Positions 16,777-32,921 of a stretch of DNA of 64,000 bases are shown one piece after another. Source of the stretch: Betaproteobacteria bacterium (GTDB lineage: Bacteria; Pseudomonadota; Gammaproteobacteria; Burkholderiales; Burkholderiaceae_C). Location: contig RGCL01000008.1 in the NCBI GenBank assembly GCA_009919175.1, positions 1 to 64,000 on the forward strand. Direction: 5' to 3'. The notes below the pieces were generated by a model, which saw only the letters and a program-made list of their open reading frames with translations, did no database searches and was not told where the DNA came from. A program made the translations under genes and the position numbers. Numbering within the stretch: position 1 is the stretch's first letter; every line of letters starts with the position of its first letter.

Positions 16777-17628
16777 ATGTCAGCCGTTCTCGAAAAAAAG
16801 CCCACCATCCACCTTGAAACCGATTTGGGCCAACGCGAATCCATTTATCAGCCCGAACAACCGGGATTGATCTTCCCCGAAACCCCTCATTTCACCGATG
16901 CGAAAGCCCATCGCCAGCACCTCAAGGAACGTCTGGTGGGTGCATGCCGGGCCTTTGCCTTGCAAGGTTTTGACTATGGTTTTGCCGGCCATCTCACGAT
17001 TCGCGATCCAGAACATCCAGATCTCTACTGGACCAACCCCATGGCTGTGCACTTTAACGATGTCAAGGTCTCCAACCTCATCCTCGCCGATCATGAGGGC
17101 AAGGTGGTCGAGGGTCGTCACGCCATCAACCGCGCTGGCTTTGTTCTTCATGCAGCAGTTCACCAAGCCCACCCTGACATCGTGGCCATGTGCCATGCAC
17201 ACACGGTCTATGGAACGGCTTATGCGTCCCTGGCCAAGCCCCTGGCACCCATCAGTCAGGATGCGTGTGCATTTTTTGAAGACCACGTGGTCATTGGCGA
17301 GTCGGCTGGGCAAGTGGCCGTGGAGGTCAAGTCGGGTCACAAGGTGGCCGATGCATTCAAAGGCGTCAAGGCTGCCATTCACCAAAACCATGGTCTGCTG
17401 ACTGCAAGCCGTCACAGCATCGATGCCGCAGCCTTCTGGTTCATTGCCCTCGAGCGCTGCTGCAAGCAGCAGCTCCTCATCGATGCCACAGGCATTGAGC
17501 CCATCCTGGTCAAGCCCGAGCGCGCCCGCTACAGCCGTGAGCATGTGGGCTCGGAATACATCGGCTGGCTGCACTTCCAAACCATTTGGGACAACCTGGT
17601 CAAAACCCAGCCCGACATGTTTGACTGA
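16777..17628 (+). CDS. Class II aldolase/adducin-family protein
   Basis: A 283-residue member of the class II aldolase family, with the zinc His pair in MCHAHTVYGTAYA and a third His in HQNHGLLTAS. The acidic residue of fuculose aldolases is replaced by the FALQGFDYGFAGHLTIRD context typical of the unassigned proteobacterial subgroup. AAGGAG lies 7 nt before the ATG. The substrate is unknown; such proteins are often annotated only as putative aldolases. No operon partner is evident. Confidence 0.85.
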   Translation: MSAVLEKKPTIHLETDLGQRESIYQPEQPGLIFPETPHFTDAKAHRQHLKERLVGACRAFALQGFDYGFAGHLTIRDPEHPDLYWTNPMAVHFNDVKVSNLILADHEGKVVEGRHAINRAGFVLHAAVHQAHPDIVAMCHAHTVYGTAYASLAKPLAPISQDACAFFEDHVVIGESAGQVAVEVKSGHKVADAFKGVKAAIHQNHGLLTASRHSIDAAAFWFIALERCCKQQLLIDATGIEPILVKPERARYSREHVGSEYIGWLHFQTIWDNLVKTQPDMFD

Positions 17629-17665: not shown

Positions 17666-17681
17666 TGGCACGCCGCTTGCA
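17666..17681 (+). promoter_or_regulatory. Sigma-54 (-24/-12) promoter
   Basis: TGGCACGCCGCTTGCA matches the consensus TGGCACG-N4-TTGCA at every fixed position, with GG and GC exactly 10 nt apart. The expected start point is near 17692, about 70 nt upstream of the next gene. A perfect 7-5-7 palindrome (TGGTGCA-N5-TGCACCA, 17704-17722) lies just downstream of the start point. Confidence 0.75.
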
Positions 17682-17703
17682 CTGTTGGTGGCGACGGCTT
17701 GTG

Positions 17704-17722
17704 TGGTGCAAAGCATGCACCA
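17704..17722. repeat. Perfect 7-bp inverted repeat in the leader of the unknown gene
   Basis: TGGTGCA (17704-17710) and TGCACCA (17716-17722) flank AAGCA. The half-sites equal NtrC half-sites but point outward rather than inward, so this is not a consensus NtrC dyad. It could be an RNA hairpin or another operator. Confidence 0.6.
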
Positions 17723-17763
17723 ACATGAAGCTCTCGTTTCAACCAAGGTGGAGGAGGTGTGAC

Positions 17764-18177
17764 ATGGAAAACATCATCAGCAAGCATGAGGCCCGCCACA
17801 TCATGGCGGCCAAGGGTCGAGAGCGCGAATACGATGCCCTGGTGCATCGCATGCTGCCAGGCTTGGTGGAGGAGTGGGTATCCCAGGGCCTGGAAGTTTC
17901 GATCGAGCATTGCTTCATCCGCATCAATGGCGCTTGCAGCCTCAAGATCAGCTGCATTTCTCCCGCAGGAGAGGAATCTCATACAGTGTTGCTCAATGGC
18001 GATGCCGCGCTGTTTCCCATCTTTTGCTGCGGTCAGCTCAAAACCGTGGTGACCTCCAAACGGCTGAATTTGACCTTGAGTCAACTGGTCAAGGACAGTG
18101 CCATTCGACTTCACCATCGCCTCAAAGCCTCCAATGACGCCGGACTGGCTGCGCCCCAAACCAGTGCGGCCGCTTGA
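17764..18177 (+). CDS. Protein of unknown function behind a sigma-54 promoter
   Basis: A 137-residue soluble protein that I do not recognise. It begins MENIISKHEARHIMAAKGRE, has two Cys near the middle (FCCGQL and an earlier HCFIRINGACSLKISC region with three Cys) and ends in an Ala-rich tail. The ATG at 17764 has a strong GGAGGAGGTG upstream; longer in-frame starts have none. It lies 86 nt ahead of the Anbu operon, behind an apparently perfect sigma-54 promoter, which suggests expression under nitrogen limitation. It has no signal peptide or membrane segment. Confidence 0.75.
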   Translation: MENIISKHEARHIMAAKGREREYDALVHRMLPGLVEEWVSQGLEVSIEHCFIRINGACSLKISCISPAGEESHTVLLNGDAALFPIFCCGQLKTVVTSKRLNLTLSQLVKDSAIRLHHRLKASNDAGLAAPQTSAAA

Positions 18178-18183
18178 GCATCC

Positions 18184-18200
18184 TGCGCCAAATCGGGGCA
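18184..18200. promoter_or_regulatory. NtrC-like dyad upstream of the Anbu operon
   Basis: TGCGCC-AAATC-GGGGCA matches the NtrC pattern TGCACC-N5-GGTGCA at 10 of 12 positions, with correct spacing and symmetric deviations. It is centred about 52 nt upstream of the predicted start point, closer than usual for an enhancer. Confidence 0.45.
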
Positions 18201-18217: not shown

Positions 18218-18233
18218 GGGCACGGGGATTGCT
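18218..18233 (+). promoter_or_regulatory. Sigma-54 (-24/-12) promoter of the Anbu operon
   Basis: GGGCACGGGGATTGCT fits TGGCACG-N4-TTGCT except for G in place of the first T. The -24 GG (18219-18220) and -12 GC (18231-18232) are exactly 10 nt apart. The start point would fall near 18244, 20 nt before the ATP-grasp gene. Confidence 0.65.
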
Positions 18234-18263: not shown

Positions 18264-19676
18264 ATGTCGATTTATTCGGAGTTCAACGGTTTTGGTGATT
18301 CACCCCGTCCCGCGTGGACGGGTTTGAACACCTGGTTTCAGCAAACCCCCGCCGAGATCCTTCAAGCCAAGCAAGAGCAAGCCAGGCTGGCTTTTTTCAG
18401 GGAAGGCATCACCTTCTCACTGGCCGGCGATGCATCAGGCGTGGAGCGCGCCATCCCCTTTGACATCCTGCCCCGAGTGCTCACCCAGTCAGAGTGGCAG
18501 TACCTCAGCCGAGGCTTGGCGCAGCGTGTGCAAGCCCTCAACCTCTTTCTTCAAGACGTCTACAACGATCAACGCATCCTGCGCGACGGCATCATCCCCA
18601 GCGAGGTGATCCTGGGCAACAGCCAGTACCGACAGGAAATGAAAGGCATTCAGGTCCCGCTGGGTGTGTATGCCGCTATCTCGGGCATTGACCTGGTTCG
18701 CACCGACGAATTGAGCTTTTATGTGCTCGAGGACAACCTGCGTGTGCCTTCGGGTGTGAGCTACATGCTGGAAAACCGCCGCATTCTTTCGCAGATCGAA
18801 CCGGAGCTCTTCGAACGCCATGGTGTAGCGCCCATTTCGCATTACCCGCACATGCTGGACCTGACCTTGCGTGAACTGGCCCCGGTCCACACCGATGACC
18901 CGGTGATGGTGGTGCTGACCCCCGGTCCTTACAACAGCGCCTATTTCGAGCATGCCTTTCTTGCGCAAAGCATTGGTGCCGAGCTTGTGGAGGGGCAGGA
19001 CTTGTTTGTCGAAGATGGCTTTGTCTACATGAAGACCATCCGGGGTCCACAGCGCGTTGATGTCATTTATCGGCGCATCGACGATGACTTTCTGGATCCA
19101 CTGGCCTTCAGACCCGACTCCATGCTGGGCGCCAGTGGATTGGTGGATGCCATGAGCCGGGGCCATGTCAGTGTGGTCAATGCCGTGGGCACCGGTGTGG
19201 CCGATGACAAGTCCATCTACCCCTACGTCCCCGACATGATCCGCTATTACCTGAGCGAGGAGCCCTTGCTCAACAACGTGCCCACCTACGTCTTGTCCGA
19301 CCCCAAGGTGTGTGACCATGTCCTGGCCAACCTGTCCGAACTGGTGGTCAAGGAAGCCCAAGGAGCGGGTGGCTATGGCATGTTGATCGGACCCAAGGCG
19401 AGCAAGGCCGAACTGGAAGCCTTTGCGCTCAAGATCAAGGCTCACCCGGACAAATACATTGCCCAACCCACCTTGGCCTTGTCCACGTGCCCCACCTTGG
19501 TCGATGAGGGCATTGCGCCTCGGCATGTGGACCTCAGGCCCTATGTGCTGCAAGGGCGCGAGGTGCGCATGGTGCCTGGAGGCCTCACCCGTGTGGCCCT
19601 CAGACAGGGCAGTTTGGTGGTCAACAGCAGCCAGGGTGGTGGAACCAAAGACACCTGGGTCTTGCAGGATGAATGA
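18264..19676 (+). CDS. Circularly permuted ATP-grasp protein of the Anbu operon
   Basis: A 470-residue protein of the circularly permuted ATP-grasp type 2 family (former DUF404/DUF407). Typical features are VERAIPFDILPRVLTQSEW near the start, QDVYNDQRILRDGIIP, VSYMLENRR, NAVGTGVADDKSIYPYVPDM and VVKEAQGAGGYGM. Members are predicted to form a peptide-like bond at the cost of ATP and regularly accompany alpha-E and Anbu genes. The product is unknown. The stop overlaps an early upstream codon of the alpha-E gene, so the two are tightly coupled. A sigma-54-like promoter lies just upstream. Confidence 0.9.
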   Translation: MSIYSEFNGFGDSPRPAWTGLNTWFQQTPAEILQAKQEQARLAFFREGITFSLAGDASGVERAIPFDILPRVLTQSEWQYLSRGLAQRVQALNLFLQDVYNDQRILRDGIIPSEVILGNSQYRQEMKGIQVPLGVYAAISGIDLVRTDELSFYVLEDNLRVPSGVSYMLENRRILSQIEPELFERHGVAPISHYPHMLDLTLRELAPVHTDDPVMVVLTPGPYNSAYFEHAFLAQSIGAELVEGQDLFVEDGFVYMKTIRGPQRVDVIYRRIDDDFLDPLAFRPDSMLGASGLVDAMSRGHVSVVNAVGTGVADDKSIYPYVPDMIRYYLSEEPLLNNVPTYVLSDPKVCDHVLANLSELVVKEAQGAGGYGMLIGPKASKAELEAFALKIKAHPDKYIAQPTLALSTCPTLVDEGIAPRHVDLRPYVLQGREVRMVPGGLTRVALRQGSLVVNSSQGGGTKDTWVLQDE

Positions 19677-19690
19677 TTGAGGAGATCAAG

Positions 19691-20689
19691 ATGTTGTGTC
19701 GCACGGCTTCAGATTTGTTTTGGATGGGACGCGCTGTGGAACGTGCGGAGGCCATGGCGAGGTTGCTGGATTTAGCGCGCCGCTTGTCCGCCTTGCCGAG
19801 TTTGCGCGATGACTCAGGTGCTCACAAGGCCTGGACCGTGCCTTTGCTGGCCACGGGAAGTCTGCCCTCGGGCATGGCCGTTCGGTCGCTGCGGCGCGAG
19901 GACATCCTGCATCAGTGCGTGCTGGATCGCGAGAATCCGGGTTCGGTGATCTCCTGCCTGCAAATGGCGCGTGACGCAGCCCGCAATCAGCGCTCAGTGG
20001 TCCCCACCGAGGTGCACGCCAGCTTGCAAAGCATGCTCTCGCGCATTGGCAACCTCAATTCGCGCTCATGGCATCAAAGTGCGCTGGGTCAAACCATTTT
20101 GGACATTCAGACCTTCTCCGACATGTTCAGGGGCGTGGGCTTTGCCACCATGCTGCGCAATGAGTCCTGGCATTTCATGCGCCTGGGCACGTTTTTCGAA
20201 CGCGCGGATGCCTCAATCCGCTTGTGGTCCACCCAGGCTGACCCCGATTTCGACTGGCTGGAGTCTGAAAGCGATGGCCCCAATGCCGCCTTTCACCGTG
20301 TGGCTTTGCTGGAGTCGGCATCGGCGCTCATGCCCTTGCGTCGCTTGCGCGGCGAGGCCAATCTGGATGGTGTGACCGAAATGCTGTTGCGCCGGATCGA
20401 TTTCCCCCGCTCGGCCAGTTACTGCTTGTTCGAGGCCTCGCGCCACCTCCAGGCCTTGCAAGTCGATGCCAGCGAGCCGGTGTCGCGTGCCTTGGGCAAG
20501 GCCCAGGCGGGCGTGTCTTATGCCGATGCAGGGCATTCCTCCAAGGCCATGTTTGCCTTTGGTGCAGCGCGTTTGGCCGACATCGCAGGCGCACAGCAGG
20601 CACTGTCACAGCGGTTCTTTGTGGCCAACCTGTCGGACCGCAGAATGCAGGTAGCCAATTCCTCTTTTCCTCAACTCAAAGCAGCCTGA
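19691..20689 (+). CDS. Alpha-E domain protein of the Anbu operon
   Basis: A 332-residue all-helical alpha-E domain protein (COG2307 type). The start MLCRTASDLFWMGRAVERAE is the family hallmark, which is why the ATG at 19691, with GAGGAG upstream, is preferred to the in-frame ATG at 19673. The protein is a constant partner of circularly permuted ATP-grasp proteins; its biochemical role is not established. Anbu follows after 15 nt. Confidence 0.88.
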   Translation: MLCRTASDLFWMGRAVERAEAMARLLDLARRLSALPSLRDDSGAHKAWTVPLLATGSLPSGMAVRSLRREDILHQCVLDRENPGSVISCLQMARDAARNQRSVVPTEVHASLQSMLSRIGNLNSRSWHQSALGQTILDIQTFSDMFRGVGFATMLRNESWHFMRLGTFFERADASIRLWSTQADPDFDWLESESDGPNAAFHRVALLESASALMPLRRLRGEANLDGVTEMLLRRIDFPRSASYCLFEASRHLQALQVDASEPVSRALGKAQAGVSYADAGHSSKAMFAFGAARLADIAGAQQALSQRFFVANLSDRRMQVANSSFPQLKAA

Positions 20690-20704
20690 CGCCCTGGAGC
20701 CTTT

Positions 20705-21448
20705 ATGACCTATTGTTGTGCGGTGATGCTCAATGCTGGCCTGGTGTTCGCATCAGACAGCCGCACCCATGCCGGCGTGGACAACGTGGGCTGTTTCAGC
20801 AAGTTGCATGTGCTGGAGATTCCCAACGACCGCGTCATCACTTTGCTCACTGCGGGCAACCTGAGTGTTTCCCAGGGCGCCATCGAGCATTTGCACCGCT
20901 GCGTTCGTGAAAACCATGCCCAGAATTGGACCAACGTCCAAAGCCTGTCGGATGTGGCCATGCTTTTGGGTGACGCCATGCGGGCTGTGGTTGCCCGGGA
21001 TGGTCCCTCCCTCAAACAAAGTGGCATCGATGCCAGCGCCAGTTTTTTGCTGGGTGGCCAAATCGGAACAGAACGTCCGCGGCTTTTTCTGGTGTATTCC
21101 GAGGGCAATGCCATTGAAGCCACGCCAGAGACCCCGTTTTTGCAGATTGGTGAAATCAAATATGGCAAACCCATTCTCGACCGTGTCATCCGCTCGGAGA
21201 TCAGTTTGCTTGAGGCCACCAAATGTGTGATGGTGAGTTTTGACTCCACCATGCGCAGCAATGTGTCGGTTGGCTTGCCCATTGATTTGCTCATCCTGCC
21301 GCGCAACCGGCTCAAGGCCGACCTGCGCTATCGGGTGGACGATCAGGACGCCTACTTTCGAGAATTGTCCGAGCGCTGGGCAAGGGGCTTGCGCCGGGTT
21401 TTCTCCGAGTTGCCACCGCCTCACTGGTATCCTGACGGACAGCAGTGA
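20705..21448 (+). CDS. Anbu, proteasome-like peptidase
   Basis: A 247-residue Ntn-hydrolase of the Anbu family, an ancestral relative of HslV and 20S proteasome subunits. The sequence MTYCCAVMLNAGLVFASDSRTHAGVDN is nearly diagnostic: after Met removal Thr2 would become the N-terminal nucleophile, and SDSRT belongs to the active-site region. The substrate is unknown; the operon partners suggest it processes a product of the ATP-grasp/alpha-E pair. The transglutaminase-like gene common in such operons is absent. ureD starts only 21 nt later, so urease genes are probably on the same transcript. Confidence 0.92.
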   Translation: MTYCCAVMLNAGLVFASDSRTHAGVDNVGCFSKLHVLEIPNDRVITLLTAGNLSVSQGAIEHLHRCVRENHAQNWTNVQSLSDVAMLLGDAMRAVVARDGPSLKQSGIDASASFLLGGQIGTERPRLFLVYSEGNAIEATPETPFLQIGEIKYGKPILDRVIRSEISLLEATKCVMVSFDSTMRSNVSVGLPIDLLILPRNRLKADLRYRVDDQDAYFRELSERWARGLRRVFSELPPPHWYPDGQQ

Positions 21449-31527: not shown

Positions 31528-32805
31528 TCAGCTCTTGCCAGCAGGCGCGTCAGGCTTGCCTGCGTTGCCAGGGATGAAGGGGCTCCAGGGCTGCGCCTTC
31601 ACAGGACCGGGCGTTTTCCACACCACTTGGAATTGACCATCCGCCTTGATCTCGCCAATGAAGACCGATTTGTGCAGGTGATGGTTGTTGGGGTCCATCT
31701 TGGACGTGATGCCGCTGGGCGCGGTGAAGGTTTGGCCGCCCATGGCTGCGATCACCTTGTCCACTTCCACTGATTTGGCTTTTTCTGCGGCCTGTTTCCA
31801 CATGTGAATGCCGATGTAGGTGGCCTCCATGGGATCGTTGGTCAGCGGCTTGTCTTTGTGACCCGCAATGCCTTTGGCCTTGGCGTAGTCGCTCCAGGAC
31901 TTGATGAAAGCCGTGTTGGTGGGGTTCTTGATGCTCATGAAGTAATTCCATGCAGCCAGATGACCGACCAAAGGCTTGGTGTTCACGCCGCGCAACTCTT
32001 CCTCGCCCACCGAGAAGGCCATCACAGGAATGTCTTTGGCCTTGATGCCAGCATTGCCCAATTCCTTGTAGAAGGGCACATTGGAGTCACCATTGATGGT
32101 GGACACCACGGCCGTCTTGCCGCCTTGGGAGAACTTCTTGATGTCGGCCACAATGGTTTGATAGTCGGAGTGACCAAACGGGGTATAGGTCTCCATGATG
32201 TCTGACTCTTTCACGCCCTTGCTCTTGAGGTAGGCGCGAAGGATTTTGTTGGTGGTCCTGGGGTAGACATAGTCGGTGCCTAGCAACACCCAGCGCTTGG
32301 CTGAGCCGCCATCTTTGCCCATCAGGTAGTCCACCGCAGGGATGGCCTGTTGGTTGGGGGCAGCACCCGTGTAGAAGACGTTTTTGGAGAGTTCCTCGCC
32401 TTCGTACTGAACGGGGTAGAACAGCAAGCCGTTGAGTTCTTCCACCACGGGCAGAACCGATTTGCGGCTGACTGAAGTCCAGCAACCAAAAATCACAGCC
32501 ACTTTGTCTTGCGTGATCAGTTGGCGGGTTTTCTCGGCGAACAAGGGCCAGTTGGAGGCGGGGTCCACCACCACAGGCTCGAGCTTTTTACCCAGCACGC
32601 CGCCGGATTTGTTGATTTCCTCAATCGCCATGAGGGCTGTGTCTTTCAACACAGATTCAGAAATGGCCATGGTGCCCGAGAGCGAGTGAAGAATGCCCAC
32701 TTTGATGGTGTCAGCGGCGAGGGCTGCGACACTCATGGTCATGGTGCCAGTGGCCACCATGGAGGCAAGCACCAGTGATTTGAGGTGATGACGACGAGAC
32801 TGCAT
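31528..32805 (-). CDS. urtA: Urea ABC transporter substrate-binding protein UrtA
   Basis: A 425-residue periplasmic protein of the Peripla_BP_5 type with a signal peptide ending near SVAALAADTIKVGI. UrtA features include LHSLSGTMAISE, FGCWTSVSRKSVLPVVEE, LNGLLFYPVQYEGEE and NHHLHKSVFIGEI. AGGAG stands 9 nt before the ATG. It heads the urtABCDE operon, 63 nt upstream of urtB. A sigma-54 promoter and NtrC-like sites lie upstream. Confidence 0.95.
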   Translation of the reverse strand: MQSRRHHLKSLVLASMVATGTMTMSVAALAADTIKVGILHSLSGTMAISESVLKDTALMAIEEINKSGGVLGKKLEPVVVDPASNWPLFAEKTRQLITQDKVAVIFGCWTSVSRKSVLPVVEELNGLLFYPVQYEGEELSKNVFYTGAAPNQQAIPAVDYLMGKDGGSAKRWVLLGTDYVYPRTTNKILRAYLKSKGVKESDIMETYTPFGHSDYQTIVADIKKFSQGGKTAVVSTINGDSNVPFYKELGNAGIKAKDIPVMAFSVGEEELRGVNTKPLVGHLAAWNYFMSIKNPTNTAFIKSWSDYAKAKGIAGHKDKPLTNDPMEATYIGIHMWKQAAEKAKSVEVDKVIAAMGGQTFTAPSGITSKMDPNNHHLHKSVFIGEIKADGQFQVVWKTPGPVKAQPWSPFIPGNAGKPDAPAGKS

Positions 32806-32851
32806 GTTGTTTACTCCTGTGAGGTGAGGCGAAAACTGCCTACTGGGTTAT

Positions 32852-32867
32852 GGCAAACCCTGTGCCA
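32852..32867 (-). promoter_or_regulatory. Sigma-54 (-24/-12) promoter of urtA
   Basis: On the minus strand TGGCACAGGGTTTGCC matches TGGCAC-N5-TTGC, with GG and GC 10 nt apart. The start point would be near 32841, about 36 nt upstream of the urtA ATG. Confidence 0.75.
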
Positions 32868-32904
32868 GCTCTTGAGGGGTGTTTTGTCCTGATTCGGTGC
32901 TGGC

Positions 32905-32921
32905 TTCACCAATTGGGTGCA
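32905..32921. promoter_or_regulatory. NtrC-like enhancer site upstream of urtA
   Basis: Read toward urtA, TGCACC-CAATT-GGTGAA matches the NtrC dyad TGCACC-N5-GGTGCA at 11 of 12 positions. It is centred about 72 nt upstream of the predicted start point. A weaker second match (GCACC-ACGTT-GGGTC, 32929-32943) is centred 23 nt further out. The rest of the 205-nt gap up to the quinone oxidoreductase gene shows no other clear element. Confidence 0.6.

Follow-up and report, generated by a model that had tools for sequence, protein, structure and literature searches.

A small undescribed protein family that mostly retains a sigma-54-type promoter and is probably nitrogen regulated

Background

Among described systems, the NtrC/sigma-54 nitrogen-limitation regulon, which comprises glnA, urt, ure and the Anbu operon, is one of the closest to the locus considered here. 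PMC5491218 describes urease, urt, xanthine dehydrogenase, a transglutaminase-domain cluster and ABC transporters as NtrC targets in Burkholderia cenocepacia. Two reports on Pseudomonas putida (PMC5666114, PMC7801951) present the Anbu operon (CP_ATPgrasp, Alpha-E, transglutaminase, and Anbu) as nitrogen-induced.

The locus lies in a window of 64,000 nucleotides (the whole stretch of DNA that was analysed) from a Betaproteobacteria bacterium, and its central gene encodes a protein of 137 residues. The family of this protein resembles the regulon in its -24/-12 element with the right spacing and, in several members, in NtrC-type palindromes and nitrogen-related neighbours. It differs in that the protein is undescribed and the -24 part is degenerate in most relatives; the window gene differs further in lacking a clear NtrC site. 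No description of the family was found in the predominantly subscription-free literature on Anbu, NtrC, and sigma-54 that was covered. The features of the locus are as follows.

17666..17681, + strand: sigma-54 (-24/-12) promoter TGGCACGCCGCTTGCA of the 137-aa gene; exact consensus; element with up to two mismatches present in 18 of 21 family members including the window
17704..17722, no strand assigned: perfect inverted repeat TGGTGCA-AAGCA-TGCACCA, TGGTGCAAAGCATGCACCA; in the relatives with the most similar promoters, only the right arm (TGCAC) is found again
17716..17732, + strand: weak NtrC-like site TGCACCAACATGAAGCT, which departs from the pattern at 3 of 12 specified bases and shares sequence with the right arm of the palindrome; not above chance alone
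17764..18177, + strand: gene of the 137-residue protein, undescribed family (open reading frame, family alignment, model with mean pLDDT 83.5)
18184..18200, + strand: NtrC-like site TGCGCCAAATCGGGGCA before the Anbu operon; 2 mismatches
18218..18233, + strand: sigma-54-type promoter GGGCACGGGGATTGCT of the Anbu operon; 1 mismatch
18264..21448, + strand: CP_ATPgrasp, Alpha-E, and Anbu genes (Pfam PF14403, PF04168); outside the conserved context of the family

The 137-residue protein and its family

The open reading frame starts at 17764, just behind GGAGGAGGTG. A reading made from the sequence alone (the sequence-only reading) could not place its product, and the searches bear this out: it is a real gene, and its family is undescribed. 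Neither Pfam nor NCBIfam gave a match to the window protein at E up to 1, and PHROGs and PADLOC gave none at the thresholds used. PDB sequences likewise gave no match to the 21 members at E up to 1, and Pfam, NCBIfam, PHROGs, and PADLOC gave them nothing convincing (isolated matches in one or two of the 21, best E 0.0025).

A first contig scan with the window protein alone retrieved no relative. A single-sequence search recovered three relatives in another genus of the same family (41-47% identity) and two distant relatives within the host genus, and these five together with the window protein constitute a six-row profile. Profile search of 84 host-genus genomes located the family in 16, host included, of which two carry two copies; the count falls from 17 to 16 because the match in G500 was dropped as spurious (E 0.009, 42 residues inside a 253-residue open frame). 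In the samples of the taxonomic family (399 genomes), the protein occurs in the host and in three genomes of one other genus. In the order sample (399 genomes, six-row profile A1), the host was accompanied by three weak partial matches, discarded for internal stop codons (two) or a position within a much longer frame (one), and in the class sample (274 genomes) only the host was found. A mobile or phage origin was considered and rejected, with no match to the window protein in plasmids or phages and none to subfamily B in viral contigs.

Mean pairwise identity among the 21 aligned members is 27%, and they are 16-48% identical to the window protein. Invariant positions are M1, E9, R19, E22, and L34, the only polar ones being E9, R19, and E22. 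The family is small and fast-evolving, and among the samples searched it was found only in two genera of one family.

The sigma-54 element ahead of the gene

In a pattern scan, TGGCACGCCGCTTGCA matches the sigma-54 consensus TGGCACGN4TTGCW with 0 mismatches, with GG at -24, GC at -12, and the fixed spacing, exactly as had been claimed for its fixed bases; PMC12316311 also gives the consensus as TGGCAC with TTGCT. The last base of the element is followed by 82 nt before the ATG, and the leader measures about 72 nt from the expected start point, which agrees with the distance of about 70 nt proposed earlier. The element is the sole exact match in the window (both strands scanned) and one of 4 in the 2.93-Mb host genome, where rpoN is also present (TIGR02395 scores above its cut-off in G000). 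When up to one mismatch is allowed, the host genome contains 31 matches versus 16 with the reversed pattern, and the window contains 3 versus a mean of 1.89 in shuffles, which is near chance for the pattern alone. As the pattern is no commoner in the window than in shuffles at this stringency, relatives are needed to decide, and it is its position and its conservation in relatives, not the bare match, that make the window element convincing. Sigma-54 control of the 137-aa gene is well supported.

Within 200 bp upstream (173 nt in one case and 74 nt in another, G475a), an element with up to two mismatches to TGGCACGN4TTGCW is present in 18 of the 21 members. In the control set of 151 neighbouring genes, each 150 aa or longer, 5 have one. 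One of the five belongs to the window Anbu operon, and the other four to ABC transporter or amidase operons that run divergently from a family member; for this reason they are probably true sigma-54 promoters too. The members without such an element are G021 (3 mismatches), G026a (none in 200 bp), and G475a (74 nt upstream only). After removal of one member from each of four pairs that are more than 80% identical, 14 or 15 of the remaining 17 keep the element, depending on whether G021 or G031 is dropped. The gene, its family, and the conservation of the promoter element are direct observations.

The element is exact in three members (window, G184, and G017), and five keep both GG and GC (the same three, G275, and G406). 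The first G of the -24 GG is kept, but in 13 of the 18 elements A, T or C takes the place of the second, an unusual feature among sigma-54 promoters; CA(C/T) and TTGC are kept in all 18. The element stands 50-55 nt before the start in the two larger groups, A and B, and 98-135 nt ahead of the ATG in the window, the other genus, and G017. A relaxed pattern, TGNCAYN5TTGCW, was worded after the family sequences had been viewed, so the counts with the textbook consensus are the fair ones. By these counts, most relatives keep a sigma-54-type element though their sequence and neighbours have changed almost wholly, and its retention down to 16% identity to the window protein suggests that the gene is probably nitrogen regulated. 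The sequence-only reading had named loss of the -24/-12 elements in close relatives, or homologues unconnected with sigma-54 or nitrogen genes, as what would speak against it; the family mostly behaves otherwise, the exceptions being G021, G026a, and the degenerate -24.

The operon divergent from group A members (L005:4209, L035:4672, L037:4690, and L036:6421) has a sigma-54 element of its own, TGGCACAGCAGTTGCA, which is identical in four genomes and precedes ABC transporter or amidase genes. With an element on the divergent side as well, one NtrC palindrome may serve both directions.

NtrC-type sites and gene neighbourhoods

The genes glnA, ntrB, and ntrC are present in the host genome. Upstream of glnA lies TGCACTGAATCAGTGCA, followed 145 nt on by the sigma-54-type element TGGCACAGTTTCTGCT (2 mismatches), and on the basis of these sites TGCAC-N7-GTGCA was taken as the NtrC operator. 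The enteric NtrC operator consensus agrees with this pattern. The host genome contains 3 exact copies, one of them before glnA with the sigma-54-type element; for the other two, no nitrogen gene was established as the target.

Perfect copies of TGCAC-N7-GTGCA are located upstream of G027, G019, G482, and G481, and copies with one mismatch before G471, G480, G275, G406, and G033, those of G275 and G406 being downstream of the sigma-54 element. With TGCACCN5GGTGCA and up to two mismatches, sites were found at 7 of the 21 members versus 3 of the 151 neighbours. The best NtrC-like matches of the window gene, at 17427, 17557, and 17716, have 3 mismatches each, and the last is downstream of the promoter. 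Given perfect palindromes at relatives and only such sites at the window, NtrC control is likely across the family but not established at the window gene. The earlier suggestion that the gene is probably nitrogen-regulated is strengthened by the sigma-54 elements, NtrC-type palindromes, and nitrogen neighbours of the family, although no good NtrC site was found at the window gene itself.

Neighbours were grouped across members, with flanks of up to 6.5 kb (several contigs being shorter) and ten representatives domain-scanned. Group A has an NMT1-type ABC transporter in four loci, two of them also with an amidase, while in group B an amidohydrolase is upstream in 9 of 9 loci, with ABC transporter parts or an FAD monooxygenase beyond it in several. 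A molybdopterin oxidase of the xanthine/aldehyde dehydrogenase type neighbours G026a and G475a, a methionine-synthase-like gene is near G275 and G406, and an ion channel adjoins G017. In the window, a class II aldolase is encoded upstream, and ATP-grasp, Alpha-E, Anbu, and then urease genes follow downstream. A nitrogen theme among the neighbours is frequent, though not universal: no obvious nitrogen neighbour was seen at G017, G275, and G406, and the upstream neighbour of the window gene is the aldolase.

Elsewhere in the window, the region 32805-32921 (minus strand) is likely another NtrC/sigma-54 promoter, with TGGCACAGGGTTTGCC at 32852 and the NtrC-like TGCACCCAATTGGTGAA at 32905. It is located just upstream of a urtA-like gene (31528-32805, minus strand), named by eye for its resemblance to UrtA, the urea-transporter binding protein.

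The adjoining Anbu operon

The Anbu operon adjoins the 137-aa gene, is encoded on the same strand, and possesses a separate sigma-54-type promoter (18218-18233). Anbu itself gave only E 0.025 against the Proteasome model and owes its name here to its position in the operon. Of the 84 host-genus genomes, 60 have the ATP-grasp gene, and 30 loci, the window included, were examined. A sigma-54-type element with up to two mismatches lies within 330 bp in 19 of the 30 (0.65 in single-base shuffles, the control used here), and an NtrC-like site with up to two mismatches is found at 14 of the 30 (0.375 in shuffles); the best site has the GG/GC core in 27 of the 30, again with the window, and as the loci are related, these counts are not independent. 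The window operon is divergent (Alpha-E about 30-35% and ATP-grasp about 56-66% identical to genus homologues), and its Anbu gene stands directly after Alpha-E.

The 137-aa gene had been put forward as a candidate member of the Anbu system, a proposal that the comparison does not support. Of the 30 Anbu loci, that of the window is alone in having the gene next to it: the remaining 29 lack it (within flanks of some 1.5 kb or less), and the other 20 members have no homologue of the window ATP-grasp or Alpha-E among their neighbours (flanks up to 6.5 kb, several shorter). The separate promoter of the operon points the same way. Membership in the Anbu system is rejected for the loci seen; the gene is not a conserved partner, and its link to the system is positional only. 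In the flanks available, the genome-context search proposed for Anbu and urease operons placed no other member beside ATP-grasp or Alpha-E, but did place nitrogen-compound genes beside several.

Predicted structure and possible function

AlphaFold2 models reached a mean pLDDT of 83.5 for the window protein and 82.7 for a member of subfamily B; the five models of each ranged from 67.5 to 83.5 (varying) and from 81.1 to 82.7 (steady), respectively. These two divergent members share the same predicted order of a short strand, two helices, five strands forming a meander, and a helix, with the invariant E9, R19, and E22 in the first helices. The structure prediction called for earlier has yielded this order in two members, but no convincing relative of the fold. 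No close known fold relative emerged from structure searches of the PDB (best Foldseek E 0.35 for the window protein and 0.48 for the relative) and of viral models (best E 0.049). In VIA-align, CapZ and Mediator chains gave Z of 7.9-8.0 with the window protein and 8.4-9.6 with the relative, near the level that the tool calls common, and UEV domains about 5.5. The chain from 4h62 is presumably Med17C, to go by its title. The alpha plus beta-meander folds of Mediator (Med17C), CapZ, and UEV type resemble the family protein in helix/meander order and differ from it in sequence (3-15% identity; best Foldseek E in the PDB 0.35). Middling Z values being common, kinship with them is not shown; PsiB, Tsg101 UEV, UFC1, and others were also discarded as fold relatives, with middling or low Z only. 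No obvious catalytic set was found in the predicted fold. This, the fold itself, and the three invariant polar residues in the first helices are the reasons for guessing, tentatively, that the protein may have a binding or adaptor role in nitrogen starvation.

Alternative explanations

The TGGCACGCCGCTTGCA-type element might be a chance match or a relic, the relatives with TG(A/T/C)CAC really using a sigma-70-type promoter. That 13 of 18 elements have another base in place of the second -24 G is in line with this, as are TTGACA- or TATAAA-like words noticed by eye in some leaders, but the window and four other members keep GG, GC, and the exact spacing, all 18 elements keep CA(C/T) and TTGC, and in 14 members the element lies 50-55 nt from the start codon; this reading is quite improbable. 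Another reading concerns the perfect TGGTGCA-N5-TGCACCA that the sequence-only reading rightly noticed between promoter and gene (17704-17722), which could serve a separate DNA-binding regulator as operator or, in the RNA, form a hairpin that controls translation. Its perfect 7-bp arms within the leader are infrequent by first-order simulation of the 82-nt leader (0.7% for a 7-N5-7 repeat, 3.8% for 7-bp arms with any gap of 3-8); the whole window contains 8 perfect 7-N5-7 repeats and 66 with a gap of 3-8. Against it, the left arm was not seen by eye in G184, G275, G406, and G017, the four members with promoters most like that of the window, and the leader as RNA is not unusually stable versus shuffles (z -0.78). 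The palindrome appears not to be conserved, and with the left arm unseen in those four members and the fold unremarkable, the case for a conserved operator or hairpin is unsupported and its probability low.

Since sigma-54 also serves flagella in the host genome, the activator could be another protein, and the promoter might belong to a flagellar or motility regulon under a flagellar enhancer-binding protein instead of NtrC. Host sigma-54 sites precede a sigma-54 activator near fliF/fliG/flagellin-like genes (named by eye), exact or near sites also precede flgB- and flgF-like genes (by eye), flhA, and a FliK-domain gene, and the site of the latter, TGTCACGCTTCTTGCT, recurs letter for letter as the element of five family members. 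However, inspection by eye of the genes around the members (ten scanned) revealed no flagellar gene, NtrC-type palindromes and nitrogen-compound genes stand beside several members, and FlhA is found in 74 of the 84 genus genomes, the family in only 16. With FlhA in 74 and RpoN in 79 of the 84, the presence of flagella is uninformative about that of the family and was discarded as its explanation; we consider flagellar control of the gene improbable. A functional role for the gene as an accessory to the Anbu/ATP-grasp/Alpha-E peptide system is suggested by its position directly upstream of the operon on the same strand and by the sigma-54-type promoters of both units, yet the other 20 members have no ATP-grasp or Alpha-E homologue nearby in the flanks available, and the gene is missing from the 29 further Anbu loci examined. 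As a general rule, such a role is already refuted for the loci seen, and it is very improbable.

The host flagellar regions have two further peculiarities. Two divergent sigma-54-type elements stand 16 bp apart between flhA and the FliK-domain gene (C1:71575-71622; L072, L073), and in the latter of the two, TGTCACGCTTCTTGCT, the -24 GG is missing its second G, as in many family members. A 1783-aa flagellin-like protein (by eye) is encoded beside a sigma-54 activator at L096:6138-11489.

A nitrogen-limitation unit and its meaning

In the reading that we favour, the region would form a transcription unit with a single gene and belong to the nitrogen-limitation response. Under nitrogen shortage, sigma-54 RNA polymerase at 17666-17681 would be activated by phosphorylated NtrC, and the soluble 137-residue protein would be made. 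This regulatory part is reasonably probable, with NtrC as the presumed activator. The family sits at different places from genome to genome, mostly with its own sigma-54-type promoter and often beside genes for nitrogen uptake or breakdown, and the protein would most likely bind or adapt a partner used in nitrogen scavenging. More speculatively, and unlikely as it stands, NtrC-switched adaptors may have been copied with their own promoter to several nitrogen-scavenging clusters and diverged to fit the local partner. If true, the lineage would possess small nitrogen-stress helpers of its own, with their own fold, whose partner might be a transporter, an amidohydrolase, an oxidase, or a peptide system.

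For the neighbouring operon, most of the Anbu loci that were examined in one genus have sigma-54-type promoters with NtrC-like sites, which extends the report from Pseudomonas putida and makes the role of Anbu easier to test. For the family itself, the kept promoter probably marks the 137-residue protein as a nitrogen-shortage protein. A regulon of textbook type would thereby gain an undescribed protein family, and nitrogen shortage would be the testable condition to which a protein of unknown role is tied.
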